The notes under the pieces were generated by a model. It saw only the letters and a list, made by a program, of their open reading frames with translations. It did not search any database and was not told where the DNA came from. From a bacterium (GTDB lineage: Bacteria; Armatimonadota; JACIXR01), in contig JACIXR010000004.1 of NCBI GenBank assembly GCA_014360495.1, forward strand, positions 1-64,000: 64,000 nucleotides of DNA. The letters run 5' to 3'. The position numbers and the translations under genes are program-made. Position 1 is the first letter of the stretch. Every line of letters begins with the position of its first letter. Shown here one piece after another: positions 18,026-22,685 of this stretch.

Positions 18026-18967
18026 TCAAGGAGTTGCTCGTCTGCAAAAAAGCATTCGCTCCCTCTTCTTTATTTCCCTGCATTCATAGTCTGGATTATA
18101 TTGGAGGAGGGTTTTTCTTATCTCAATAGGGTCCTTGGGGCGATGATATATAGAGACAGCCATTTTGGGTTTGAAGTTAGCTATGGTTTGCTTAGCACCA
18201 TACAGAGCATCCAGTTCACCACCCTCTATATCCATCTTTATAAAATCCACCCTTTCCAAGTTAAGTTCCTCTATTATGGAGTCCAATGTTTTACCCTGAA
18301 CAACTTCAAAATTATTGGTTAAGGCTTCCCGAATCACTTTGTGTTCTATATTTTTGTAGAGGGAATGACTGGCAGGGCTTATAGATAGGAATAACTTAAG
18401 TTCGCAATTTTCCTTGTATAGAGCGTATCTCAAAGGGATGATTTCGCCAACTTTACCTCTATTCAATTCAGCTGTTCGCCTAAGAATCCTAAAATTAGCT
18501 TCCTCAGCCTCAATCGCGACAACTTTTCCTCTTAACCCAACCTTCCGGGCGAATATTAAACTTGCAACACCTATATTAGCTCCGCAATCAATAACGATAT
18601 CACCTTCTTCTATTTCCACAGGATATTCTTCATATTCACTAAGCAGATATATTTCTTGGAGAGCTTCAGAGAAAGTTCTTATATACCCTTTGGGGATTAG
18701 AAAAAGGAGTCCGTTCTTCTCGTATATCTTTCCTTCAGATGTTGAGCAGATAAGTTTAAGGTTGTGAGCAAGGCTTTCTATTCCGTTTTCCATAAATCTA
18801 CTTGGAATTGGGAACAAATAAAAAAATCTTGCCAAGAAATACAGCAACCTCTCTCTAAATGGGACTCCTTTACCTCTGCGATGGGCAATTATTGTATTTA
18901 AAGCCTTTTCAATCTCGCTTGCCCTTGCCAAGAACGCTTTTTGAATGAAGGAGATTGGGTTTTTCAT
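18026..18967 (-). CDS. FkbM-family methyltransferase, paralogue 1
   Basis: 313 residues. The SAM-binding motif VIDCGANIGVASLIFA sits at about 125-140, and the FkbM core DFIKMDIEGGELDALYGA near 250. Family members O-methylate sugars or other metabolites; they often sit in polysaccharide loci. The N-terminal ~110 residues are a less conserved helical part. It is 5 bases downstream of the PIG-L gene and seems to be the last gene of trm9-like/PIG-L/fkbM. A clear paralogue with the same architecture lies at 59059-59961, beside exopolysaccharide genes. Confidence 0.9.
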   Translation of the reverse strand: MKNPISFIQKAFLARASEIEKALNTIIAHRRGKGVPFRERLLYFLARFFYLFPIPSRFMENGIESLAHNLKLICSTSEGKIYEKNGLLFLIPKGYIRTFSEALQEIYLLSEYEEYPVEIEEGDIVIDCGANIGVASLIFARKVGLRGKVVAIEAEEANFRILRRTAELNRGKVGEIIPLRYALYKENCELKLFLSISPASHSLYKNIEHKVIREALTNNFEVVQGKTLDSIIEELNLERVDFIKMDIEGGELDALYGAKQTIANFKPKMAVSIYHRPKDPIEIRKTLLQYNPDYECREIKKRERMLFCRRATP

Positions 18968-18972
18968 TTAAT

Positions 18973-20400
18973 TTATTTAATGTTGTGAGCCCTTTTAAGA
19001 ACCTCTCTATGAACTATATGCTGGGGCTCCAAAATCGCTATGCGATAAGCGGTTTTATCTATTGTGATTGCCTTATTTTTAGCCATCGCTCCTATGAATA
19101 AGAAACGATTATTTCCGAGCGAATGAAGGGGAATCGCATACTCCAAACACTTCCCTGATACAGTCGGCTTGAATTCCTTTGTCAACATAAATCTCTTCTC
19201 GTTTGCTTCTTCTATTCCTCCATACATTGAAATGTAATATCTTACTTTTATGCTTATATTTTTTGCCGTTTTAAGCATCAAGTAAAGGTTATCAGAATCA
19301 CGACAAGCATAAATGTAGGTTATATCGGCTTCAGGTTCTAATATTTTCCATAAGATATCCTTCTGGGGGTCTATTATGAATGGAGGTATTCCCGTCCAAT
19401 CCTCCGCCTTTCCATCCACTTTAATCCTTCCATTATTTACTAAATGTATTGGCAGAGCGTTCTTCTCATCCGCGAAAAGCTCGTTTGAACGGGCAAATGC
19501 AAACATAAACTTCCTCATTCTCGGCACAAGTTGGGTCTTGTATGTATTTATTGCCTCATACTTTAGTCGCACGATATCCTGCGGAAGTGAAAAGCTCCTC
19601 CAATGAAATCCCAAGCCCAAAAGGGTGGAGGGTGGTTTTATCGTTTCCTCCATTTTCAAACCTCTGGGGTAGGGGAAACGACCCCTGTGGACCACGTAGG
19701 TGTAGGTTTGGGGTGAGAAGTTATGTTTTTCTCTTATCTCCAGGAGGGCTATATTTACGAAGGAATTAACTGCCCAGTGCGTTGGGTGGGCATCCTCCGC
19801 TGAGGGAATGAAGATATGAGTGGGTTTGTAATCAAGGATTATTTTCTCCAAATCCTCAAGAAGGGAGCGTCCGCAATAGGGTGCGTTTTTATGATAGATG
19901 TTATTGAAGGGAGAAAAACGGGTGTGGAGGAGTGTATGCGTGTAGAGCTGATTATACTCCCAGTATTTTTCCCAAAGAAGGCATAAATCTGTATCGGGAT
20001 AACCCAAGAAAATAACATCCTCTCTGGGCACACCGAGAAATTCCATTGCGGACAGAGTTTCCTTCTGTCTTTTCTCTCCGAATTTTATATAGTAGGAGGG
20101 TGGAAGTAAGACTTTCTTATAATGGATATGGGCAGCGTAGGAAAAGGACTCGCCGTTCGTCACGACTACCACTTTAACCGGAATACCTTTTCTCCTTGCA
20201 AGCGCGATGAGACCGCCACAAGCAAGCGTTTCATCGTCAGGATGGGGAGCGATGACCATTATCTTCTTCATCTCCGATAAAGGTGGCATTGGCAGGAGGG
20301 GGTAAAGCTGGTTTCCAATCCCAGAAGGATTGTGTCGGAATACGAGAAGAAAGAATAGGGGGAAAACGAAGAGGATTGTTCTCGCTATATGTCTAATCAT
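18973..20400 (-). CDS. PIG-L/LmbE-family deacetylase with C-terminal CBM9-like domain
   Basis: 475 residues. A hydrophobic N-terminal segment (8-22) suggests export or membrane anchoring. The PIG-L domain (about 45-270) has the zinc motif APHPDDETLACGG (His53, Asp56) and a later PSAEDAHPTHW with the third histidine. Such enzymes remove N-acetyl groups from GlcNAc-linked substrates. Residues ~325-470 (IKVDGKAEDWTGIPP, then ADITYIYACRDSDNLYLM) look like the CBM9-type domain found on secreted glycan enzymes. The fusion implies a glycan substrate outside the cytoplasm. It overlaps the upstream methyltransferase gene by 8 bases, so translation is probably coupled. Confidence 0.88.
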   Translation of the reverse strand: MIRHIARTILFVFPLFFLLVFRHNPSGIGNQLYPLLPMPPLSEMKKIMVIAPHPDDETLACGGLIALARRKGIPVKVVVVTNGESFSYAAHIHYKKVLLPPSYYIKFGEKRQKETLSAMEFLGVPREDVIFLGYPDTDLCLLWEKYWEYNQLYTHTLLHTRFSPFNNIYHKNAPYCGRSLLEDLEKIILDYKPTHIFIPSAEDAHPTHWAVNSFVNIALLEIREKHNFSPQTYTYVVHRGRFPYPRGLKMEETIKPPSTLLGLGFHWRSFSLPQDIVRLKYEAINTYKTQLVPRMRKFMFAFARSNELFADEKNALPIHLVNNGRIKVDGKAEDWTGIPPFIIDPQKDILWKILEPEADITYIYACRDSDNLYLMLKTAKNISIKVRYYISMYGGIEEANEKRFMLTKEFKPTVSGKCLEYAIPLHSLGNNRFLFIGAMAKNKAITIDKTAYRIAILEPQHIVHREVLKRAHNIK

Positions 20401-21034
20401 AGCAGGTTAATATAGCCAGGATATTTCTGTTCTCCTGAATTTTTTCTGCCATAAAGCCTGCTTTCTTCGCCAGTTCCTCTATCTCTTCCTTCCTAAAGGC
20501 ATGATAATAACGGGGGGCTTTCTCCTTTCCGAAAGGAATTATTATATCCCCGCTCTCGTCTATCTTTTCCCTATGTTTTTCCTCTTTCCAAAGATTCCAA
20601 ACTGTGAGCATAACCTTGCCTCTTTTATTCAGCAATTTCTTCGCTTTTTTAAGAAAATTTAAGCGAGTTCTTATCGTGGGAAAGTGATGGAGGACGGCTA
20701 TTGCGAAAATAAAATCGTAATCATTTCCTAATCGTTTATAGGGTAAAGTCAAGAAATCGCCCACTATAAATCTTCTTTCAGGATATTTTCTTCTTGCTTC
20801 TTCAATCAAACCCTTACACAAATCAACTCCTAAATATCGGATATTTCGAGGCAAAACGGATAGAAGACGCCCGTTTCCACAGCCTATATCCAGCACTTTT
20901 GCTCCCTCAAATACTTCCTTCCCCAACTCCTCCATTTCCTCCCAGGGCTTTGACCTCGTCTGGGAGAACTCTTTCGCGACGCTTTCATAAGTCTTTTTCA
21001 ATTGCTCTTTCACTTCTTTATAAGTCAGCTTCAT
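20393..21034 (-). CDS. Trm9/ALKBH8-like tRNA methyltransferase (class I SAM)
   Basis: 213 residues. The N terminus VAKEFSQTRSKPW (residues 19-31) is the hallmark of the Trm9 family, whose yeast member has FSQTRYKPW in the same place. Then come the SAM site VLDIGCGNG (47-55), GVDLCKGLIEEAR, FAIAVLHHFPT with the family's double His, DIIIPF and the late RYYHAFRKEEIEEL, which parallels Trm9's RYYH block. Trm9 methylates the carboxymethyl group on wobble uridine (cm5U to mcm5U), the step after Elp3. Here elp3 is the divergent neighbour, 91 bases away. Yeast Trm9 works with Trm112; no Trm112-like gene is seen in the window. Start: ATG without a clear ribosome binding site. Function is inferred, not proven; a generic small-molecule methylase remains possible. 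Confidence 0.78.
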   Translation of the reverse strand: MKLTYKEVKEQLKKTYESVAKEFSQTRSKPWEEMEELGKEVFEGAKVLDIGCGNGRLLSVLPRNIRYLGVDLCKGLIEEARRKYPERRFIVGDFLTLPYKRLGNDYDFIFAIAVLHHFPTIRTRLNFLKKAKKLLNKRGKVMLTVWNLWKEEKHREKIDESGDIIIPFGKEKAPRYYHAFRKEEIEELAKKAGFMAEKIQENRNILAILTCYD

Positions 21035-21091
21035 TTTTAAATTATTATTTACATTTTAACCTCGCTCGTCAAAGCGAATCCCTCTAATTTG

Positions 21092-21120
21092 TTGACAATT
21101 GTAATTTAAGTTAAAATATT
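21092..21120 (+). promoter_or_regulatory. Putative leaderless promoter of elp3
   Basis: TTGACA (21092-21097), 17-base spacer, AATATT (21115-21120), 5 bases before the GTG at 21126; TAAAAT at 21112-21117 is an alternative -10 with a short spacer. No ribosome binding site is present. Confidence 0.5.
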
Positions 21121-21125
21121 TTATT

Positions 21126-22685
21126 GTGAAGACCGAGATAAAAGAAAAATTTGAGGAGATATTTGAAGAGGTATTCGCCTCAGCCGATAATTTAGCTCTT
21201 TTCCATCAGCTTTTGAAGGATAAAATCGGCAAGCATAAGCTCCCATTTCCTTCAAAGGTTGACCTCCTCGCTGTTTATCGCAAGCTTGTTGAGGATGGGA
21301 GAATAGAGAGAAAGGAGTTTTTGGAAAGCTATCTCCTCAAGAAGGAGATGCGAACTTTATCTGGCGTCGCTCCCGTCGCTGTTTTCACCAAGCCATATCC
21401 TTGCCCAGGCACTTGCATATATTGCCCCTCGGAAAAGGGAATTCCTAAGAGCTACATTCACAATGAGCCGGCTGTCATGAGGGCAGAGGAGAACAGATAT
21501 GACCCTTATAAGCAGGTTTCAGCGAGATTGCGGCATTATAGGGAGATGGGGCATCCCACAAGCAAGGTAGATTTGATTGTTATGGGAGGCACATTCTCCT
21601 ATCTTCCAGGGAGATATCAAACTTGGTTCATAAAGCGATGTTTTGATGCCCTCAATGGGGTTGATGCAAGGAATTTAGTTGAAGCGCAAAGGATAAACGA
21701 GAAGGCGGAGAATAGATGCGTTGGATTAACCGTAGAAACTCGTCCGGATTTGATAAACAAGGAGGAATTAAAGAGATTCAGAAGGCTGGGTGTAACCAGG
21801 GTGGAGTTGGGGGTGCAGTCTCTTTACGACGATGTTTTGTTAAAAAATAAGAGAGGGCATACGACGAGTGAGGTTAGGGAAGCGACTAAGCTTCTGCGAG
21901 ATGCTGGTTTCAAGATAACCTATCATATGATGCTGAACCTTTTGGGAAGCGATAAGGAAAGGGATATAAGGCAATTTGAGATTCTCTTTAACGACCCCGC
22001 TTACCGTCCAGATTACCTCAAGATATACCCCTGTGTTTTAACGCCTTACGCTGAGCTTCGGGAATACTGGGAGAGGGGTGAGTGGATTCCCTATACTGAT
22101 GAGGAGCTCTTGGATACATTGGCGAAGATTAAAGCAATGATTCCCATATATGTTCGGATAATAAGGGTTATAAGGGATATCCCAGCCGACCAGATAATAG
22201 CGGGAAGCAAGATGTCAAATATGCGGCAGGTCTTACAGAAGAAGATTAAGTGTAAATGTATCAGATGTCGTCAGGCTACCTCAGCTCCAATGGATTGGAA
22301 TGATGTTCGGCTTTTTCGCTTGGACTACGAAGCTTCCGGGGGAAAGGAGATTTTCCTTTCCTTTGAATCAATTGATAGGGAGATTCTCTATGCCTTCCTG
22401 CGTTTGAGGAAGGTAGGGGAAGGTTTGGTGAGGGAGTGGACTGGTTCAGACGTGGTCATAAGGGAAGTCCATACATACGGACCCATGGTTCCCTTACATA
22501 AAAGGGATGTCTTGGCGGTTCAGCATTTCGGATTGGGTAGGCGGCTTTTGGAAGAGGCTGAAAGGATAGCGAAAGAGGAGTTAGGGGCGAGAAGGATAGC
22601 GGTAATAGCGGGAATTGGGGCAAGGGAATATTTTGAGAAGTTCGGCTACAAGCTCATCAAAACTTATATGGTGAAGGAATTATAA
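21126..22685 (+). CDS. elp3: Elp3-family tRNA uridine(34) acetyltransferase/radical SAM protein
   Basis: 519 residues with the full Elp3 layout. Residues ~75-330 are the radical SAM domain: RTLSGVAPVAVFTKPYPC, with Fe-S cysteines C93, C97 and C100, then LIVMGGTFSYLP and VGLTVETRPD. Residues ~370-519 are the GNAT acetyltransferase domain (VREVHTYG-type strand, FGLGRRLLEEAERIA, and a Tyr-rich end EYFEKFGYKLIKTYM). Elp3 puts a carboxymethyl precursor on C5 of wobble uridine in tRNA from acetyl-CoA. Some bacteria and all archaea use it alone, without the other Elongator subunits; none is found here. The start is a GTG with no ribosome binding site. The divergent neighbour is Trm9-like. Confidence 0.95.
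   Translation: MKTEIKEKFEEIFEEVFASADNLALFHQLLKDKIGKHKLPFPSKVDLLAVYRKLVEDGRIERKEFLESYLLKKEMRTLSGVAPVAVFTKPYPCPGTCIYCPSEKGIPKSYIHNEPAVMRAEENRYDPYKQVSARLRHYREMGHPTSKVDLIVMGGTFSYLPGRYQTWFIKRCFDALNGVDARNLVEAQRINEKAENRCVGLTVETRPDLINKEELKRFRRLGVTRVELGVQSLYDDVLLKNKRGHTTSEVREATKLLRDAGFKITYHMMLNLLGSDKERDIRQFEILFNDPAYRPDYLKIYPCVLTPYAELREYWERGEWIPYTDEELLDTLAKIKAMIPIYVRIIRVIRDIPADQIIAGSKMSNMRQVLQKKIKCKCIRCRQATSAPMDWNDVRLFRLDYEASGGKEIFLSFESIDREILYAFLRLRKVGEGLVREWTGSDVVIREVHTYGPMVPLHKRDVLAVQHFGLGRRLLEEAERIAKEELGARRIAVIAGIGAREYFEKFGYKLIKTYMVKEL

Follow-up and report, generated by a model that had tools for sequence, protein, structure and literature searches.

A window of 64,000 nucleotides (positions 1 to 64,000 of contig JACIXR010000004.1, assembly GCA_014360495.1) from a bacterium of the Armatimonadota lineage JACIXR01 carries a gene for Elp3 side by side with a gene for a small class I methyltransferase resembling Trm9. 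We consider, with a probability of about 0.75, that these two genes constitute a bacterial two-enzyme pathway for 5-carboxymethyluridine and 5-methoxycarbonylmethyluridine at position 34 of tRNA (cm5U34 and mcm5U34), which replaces MnmE/MnmG. In eukaryotes, Elp3 working within Elongator makes cm5U, which Trm9 then methylates to mcm5U; this nucleoside has been regarded as eukaryotic and lately archaeal, with MnmEG as the bacterial solution. In the pathway that we propose, Elp3, without other Elongator subunits, would generate a 5'-deoxyadenosyl radical as an enzyme of the radical S-adenosylmethionine (SAM) type and couple acetate derived from acetyl-CoA to C5 of U34, thereby forming the carboxymethyl group of cm5U34, after which the Trm9-like methyltransferase would use SAM to esterify the carboxylate, yielding mcm5U34. 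Together, the two genes would stand in for MnmE/MnmG, would have been acquired by the genus as one unit and, in Patescibacteria at least, would run without Trm112. The reactions, the set of tRNAs and the product are what we infer from the evidence presented below. The sequence-only reading of this DNA had already proposed such a minimal bacterial mcm5U34 route, and the proposal has gained support from the conserved pairing of the genes, the affinity of the methyltransferase to Trm9 and the absence or exclusion of MnmEG.

The arrangement of the two genes is the one described in that reading: the Elp3 gene, with a GTG start and 519 codons for amino acids, spans 21126-22685 on the plus strand, and the methyltransferase gene, with an ATG start and a product of 213 residues, spans 20393-21034 on the minus strand, so that they diverge from an intergenic region of 91 bp (21035-21125). 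The former encodes a complete Elp3, as judged from Pfam, the NCBIfam ELP3 model TIGR01211 (567.5 bits, cut-off 350) and the alignment of its sequence, from residue 59 to the C-terminus, with Elp3 structures solved from archaea and bacteria (6iaz, 6ia8). The layout expected of the family is fully present, as had been noticed, with the radical SAM cysteines in the order C93-X3-C97-X2-C100 and a C-terminal GNAT/KAT domain (PF00583, 21.2 bits, cut-off 20.7), to which the linker cysteines C376/C378/C381 can be added. Archaeal Elp3 has been shown to form cm5U, and the Methanocaldococcus enzyme requires E207, K302 and Y304 for its function (PMC13315578); their counterparts in the alignment are E204, K299 and Y301 of the window protein. 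These three residues, together with the three radical SAM cysteines, are invariant in all the Elp3 proteins found linked to the methyltransferase (117/117), even if the cysteine spacing is CX3CX2C in the bacterial proteins analysed here and CX4CX2C in archaeal Elp3 of M. infernus. Formation of cm5U34 on tRNA is the activity predicted for the window's Elp3. As to other Elongator components, Pfam recognised no Elp1, Elp2 or Elp4-6 among the genes adjoining the pair, the rest of the genome not having been searched for them.

How close is the neighbouring protein, assigned from its open reading frame and from PDB, profile and fold matches, to genuine Trm9? Its top sequence match in the PDB is Yarrowia Trm9 (5cm2_Z), with E 2.3e-16 and the next match at 5.2e-8, and a profile built from 31 family members also retrieves Trm9 first among solved structures (134 bits, followed by 89). 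An AlphaFold2 model of high confidence (mean predicted local distance difference test score, pLDDT, of 94.8) leads Foldseek to the same structure, with E 1.9e-14 and a target-normalised template modelling (TM) score of 0.84, followed by 1.4e-11 and 0.70. The two motifs highlighted from the sequence lie where functional residues are expected from the alignment to 5cm2: FSQTRSKPW comprises residues 23-31 and RYYH residues 175-178, and R27, H116/H117, R175, Y177 and N204 match R29, H115, R241, Y243 and N271 of Trm9, the individual yeast numbers, beyond the alignment of the motifs, being presumed ones. Mutations of these residues impair tRNA binding and activity of yeast Trm9 (PMC5372719), and all five critical positions are kept in the window protein. 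That the methyltransferase would work like Trm9 is thus well supported by sequence and structural modelling.

The affinity to Trm9 that had been suggested therefore stands in single-sequence, profile and fold searches and in the critical residues, but a strict Trm9 clade is neither demonstrated nor rejected by phylogeny. In the maximum-likelihood tree, Yarrowia Trm9 groups with archaeal Trm9-like proteins and the Dehalococcoidia members are their sisters (98/96 support); the window's genus forms an isolated branch, distinct from that of the Dehalococcoidia proteins, and the generic outgroup sequences fall in scattered positions, each with long branches. Constraining all Trm9-like rows into one clade produced a p value of 0.44 in the approximately unbiased (AU) test, neither rejecting nor showing such a clade, and the constraint joining the genus with archaeal, Yarrowia and Dehalococcoidia proteins was likewise not rejected (0.44). 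Two relatives of the methyltransferase, one of them from Omnitrophota (L021 and L022, respectively the Omnitrophota locus and a second one), have the RYYH motif and no Elp3 within their contig.

The pairing of the two genes carries much of the argument. Among 81 genomes of the window's phylum, searched with thresholds of E up to 1e-12 for the methyltransferase and up to 1e-30 for Elp3, either gene was found in just three, all of the same genus (0/78 elsewhere), and in each of these three the genes are adjacent and divergent. The surrounding order is also shared, with a periplasmic-binding-protein gene adjoining Elp3 in 3/3 genomes and a PIG-L gene adjoining the methyltransferase in the window as well as in one of the congeners. 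Such synteny makes the pairing within the genus weak evidence, and distant phyla were therefore surveyed. Scanning genome contigs with the aligned family yielded 80 methyltransferase loci. Elp3 adjoins 20 of them, mostly in divergent orientation and at no more than 350 bp, and these cases come from Patescibacteria, Peregrinibacteria, Magasanikbacteria, Anaerolineae, Myxococcota and Deltaproteobacteria; at one locus (L028), Elp3 is found at the opposite flank of the methyltransferase. The survey was then conducted from the side of Elp3, a gene detected in 48 of 251 genomes of Chloroflexota and in 139 of 380 of Patescibacteria; the DNA flanking it was scanned with the methyltransferase family profile at 47 loci of the former phylum and 130 of the latter. 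The methyltransferase lies beside Elp3 in 40/47 Chloroflexota and 86/130 Patescibacteria loci (126/177 in total), and in every one of the 126 it is upstream of Elp3 on the opposite strand, a placement that rules out chance neighbourhood. In the first 96 cases the gap measures 0-320 bp, except for ten of 858-1159 bp which contain intervening sequence. The conservation that had been suggested as a check thus extends far beyond the genus, and it includes a Chloroflexota locus (L133) where the Elp3, identical over 458 residues to that of Dehalococcoides mccartyi (5l7j), stands head-to-head with the methyltransferase about 55 bp away. Moreover, the distance matrices of Elp3 and methyltransferase in 117 pairs are correlated with r 0.86, against a maximum of 0.05 in 999 permutations, and the correlation holds within Patescibacteria (0.74) and within Chloroflexota (0.95), where no permutation exceeded 0.26; this shows that the two proteins are inherited together. 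In several Anaerolineae (L146, L158, L160 and L164, with gaps of 860-990 bp), a gene on the Elp3 strand between the pair resembles 3'-phosphoadenosine-5'-phosphosulfate (PAPS) reductase, a reading made only where the correct frame was displayed; its presence looks incidental.

The functional link between the two proteins is independently supported because MnmE and MnmG are absent from the genus and because MnmG and Elp3 exclude each other in Chloroflexota. In the window's genus, the best matches to MnmG and MnmE reach 63 and 111 bits, far from the cut-offs of 525 and 253, and presumably represent TrmFO and GTPases of the Der/Era type; both proteins are present in 13/18 other genomes of the phylum. 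MnmG is also missing from 32/33 genomes with a relative of the methyltransferase, and the Omnitrophota genome of L021 has it. Within Chloroflexota, MnmG occurs in 0/48 genomes having Elp3 vs 101/203 genomes lacking it (Fisher p 5e-13, a value that overstates the evidence since related genomes are not independent); the corresponding figures for Patescibacteria are 0/139 and 6/241 (p 0.09). The classical pathway for (carboxymethyl)aminomethyl-type uridines, (c)mnm5U34, based on MnmE/MnmG with MnmC/MnmM, concerns the same nucleotide and has the same expected decoding role but uses unrelated enzymes, and, unlike its carriers, the Elp3-bearing genomes surveyed in these two phyla never have MnmG. 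Genomes with neither MnmG nor Elp3 are found too: 5/21 in the window's phylum (G006, G010, G012, G016 and G020), 235/380 in Patescibacteria and 102/251 in Chloroflexota.

Does the bacterial methyltransferase need Trm112, with which the Trm9-type enzyme forms a heterodimer in eukaryotes and haloarchaea? The sequence-only reading had seen no Trm112, and this is true within the window, but a short Trm112-like open reading frame lies elsewhere in the genome (PF03966 match at C1:212374-212481, minus strand, with a CPVC...CLGC arrangement and about 56 residues from MNNYERL), as it does in both congeners. A heterodimer with this protein in the window's organism, which would modify rather than replace the pathway proposed here, is a possibility that we hold to be real though somewhat less probable than its opposite. 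PF03966 is matched in 3/3 genomes of the genus and, among genomes carrying the methyltransferase, in the archaeal and most of the Chloroflexota-type ones. However, short proteins of Trm112/YcaR type are matched in 19/21 genomes of the phylum irrespective of the methyltransferase, 16 of them being outside the genus and having no detected relative of it, and the Trm112-like frame is therefore no evidence for a partner. The Patescibacteria/Peregrinibacteria-type genomes that carry the pair gave no match to PF03966, within the limits set by small-protein detection and incomplete genomes; because of this, the methyltransferase probably needs no Trm112 in Patescibacteria.

Several considerations weigh against the mcm5U34 pathway. 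To our knowledge, no bacterial mcm5U has been measured so far. There are 36 Patescibacteria and 7 Chloroflexota loci in which Elp3 has no adjoining methyltransferase, plus five with another gene in that place, and the co-divergence of the two proteins reflects in part mere organismal descent. The Dehalococcoides methyltransferase, which has FR in place of TR, when taken alone ranks Trm9 only seventh among its PDB matches; the tree with generic outgroups does not resolve a specific Trm9 clade; and the residues equivalent to Y243 and to the K of TRxK in Trm9 vary across the wider family. The latter variation leads to another interpretation, in which Elp3 makes cm5U34 while the methyltransferase acts on some other C5 derivative or tRNA position, with a product different from mcm5U. 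Outside the genus, the family is indeed diverse, its members sharing 25-40% identity with the protein of the window, and its 117 Elp3-linked members seldom retain the strict motifs of Trm9, TRxKxW being present in 9 and RYYH-type sequences in 33, with Y at position 177 in 53 and mostly V, C or A in the others. Yet the window protein has all the critical residues of Trm9, R27 and W146 are invariant among the same 117 members, H116 and H117 are each found in 115 and R175 in 113, and Trm9 is the closest solved structure in all comparisons, whether made with the window protein or with the profile of the family, so that we regard this interpretation as unlikely. Less probable still is that a generic class I methyltransferase with an unrelated substrate happens to adjoin Elp3 and travels with it: Pfam does offer only generic models (Methyltransf_11 and Methyltransf_25), no NCBIfam equivalog passes its cut-off and the tree does not cleanly separate the family from generic enzymes, but the head-to-head order without exception in Chloroflexota and Patescibacteria, the additional pairs in Myxococcota/Deltaproteobacteria and Peregrinibacteria and the top structural match to Trm9 all speak against it.

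Turning to the surroundings of the pair, the intergenic region has one promoter-like site for each gene, recognised by consensus match only: TTGACA at 21092 followed, after a spacer of 17 nt, by AATATT ending at 21120 for Elp3, and 21072 to 21044 on the minus strand for the methyltransferase. The interval 20950-21200 contains four such matches vs 0.6 expected. Each of the three genomes of the genus has an TAAAATAT-like element that ends a few bases 5' of the GTG start of Elp3 (window 21113-21128; L005:1329-1347; L006:2697-2713, minus strand), and the start regions of these three genes have no obvious ribosome-binding site; the placement of the element possibly fits a leaderless transcript. Downstream of the methyltransferase, the gene for a PIG-L family deacetylase identified by Pfam (18973-20400, minus strand) overlaps its end by 8 bp, an overlapping junction also seen in one congener, and is probably co-transcribed with it, while remaining outside the pathway. 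An FkbM methyltransferase gene (18026-18967, minus strand) follows after a gap of 5 bp, so that the three genes run consecutively on this strand in an operon-like manner.

Elp3 loci without the methyltransferase have no single alternative neighbour in common, save for five cases in Patescibacteria in which a standalone protein with the asparagine-synthetase domain PF00733, of about 265 residues and with an SGGxDSS-type motif, lies beside Elp3 (L169:16-867, minus strand; L171:690-1481, L179:3340-3780 and L180:3201-4022, plus strand; L211:2139-2933, minus strand). It is divergent from Elp3 in four loci and upstream on the same strand in one, and it is never found together with the methyltransferase at the Elp3 loci surveyed. 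The formation of 5-carbamoylmethyluridine (ncm5U) has been described as "yet unknown" (PMC6367351). Purely as a hypothesis, this neighbour might amidate cm5U to ncm5U in an ATP-dependent manner. Bacterial Elp3 would then open a modular pathway, independent of Trm112 and replacing MnmEG, in which the neighbour sets the product, mcm5U with the Trm9-like enzyme and ncm5U with the asparagine-synthetase type in some Patescibacteria; we find this generalisation doubtful.

In comparison with the eukaryotic combination of Elongator and Trm9-Trm112/ALKBH8, the bacterial pair shares two catalytic families and the expected chemistry, but its genes are adjacent and divergent, its methyltransferase has only 213 residues and Trm112 appears to be dispensable in Patescibacteria. 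Archaeal systems such as those of Sulfolobus solfataricus and H. volcanii likewise have Elp3 without Elongator partners and a Trm9-like methyltransferase; the presence of these genes in archaea, clustered in S. solfataricus, was noted in 2008 (PMC2584109), and mcm5U34 has been reported for Haloferax volcanii (PMC7663514). In the archaeal loci found here, however, Elp3 lies away from the methyltransferase, in contrast with the fixed head-to-head order of bacteria. The Elp3 of D. mccartyi belongs to the same family as that of the window, with a short N-terminus, and has a head-to-head methyltransferase of the same family as well. A 2017 review stated that no bacterial genes similar to Trm112-dependent methyltransferases were detectable (PMC5372719), another of 2020 that direct evidence of cm5U-type nucleosides was lacking for bacteria with Elp3 (PMC7663514), and a 2026 paper that Elp3 likely modifies alone in bacteria (PMC13315578); in the literature, of which our coverage is incomplete, we found no description of the bacterial Elp3/Trm9-like pair. 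The conserved pair would give bacterial Elp3 proteins a concrete second step, even beside the Elp3 of solved structure. It predicts which bacteria may carry mcm5U, and it would offer a Trm9-type enzyme that is free of Trm112.

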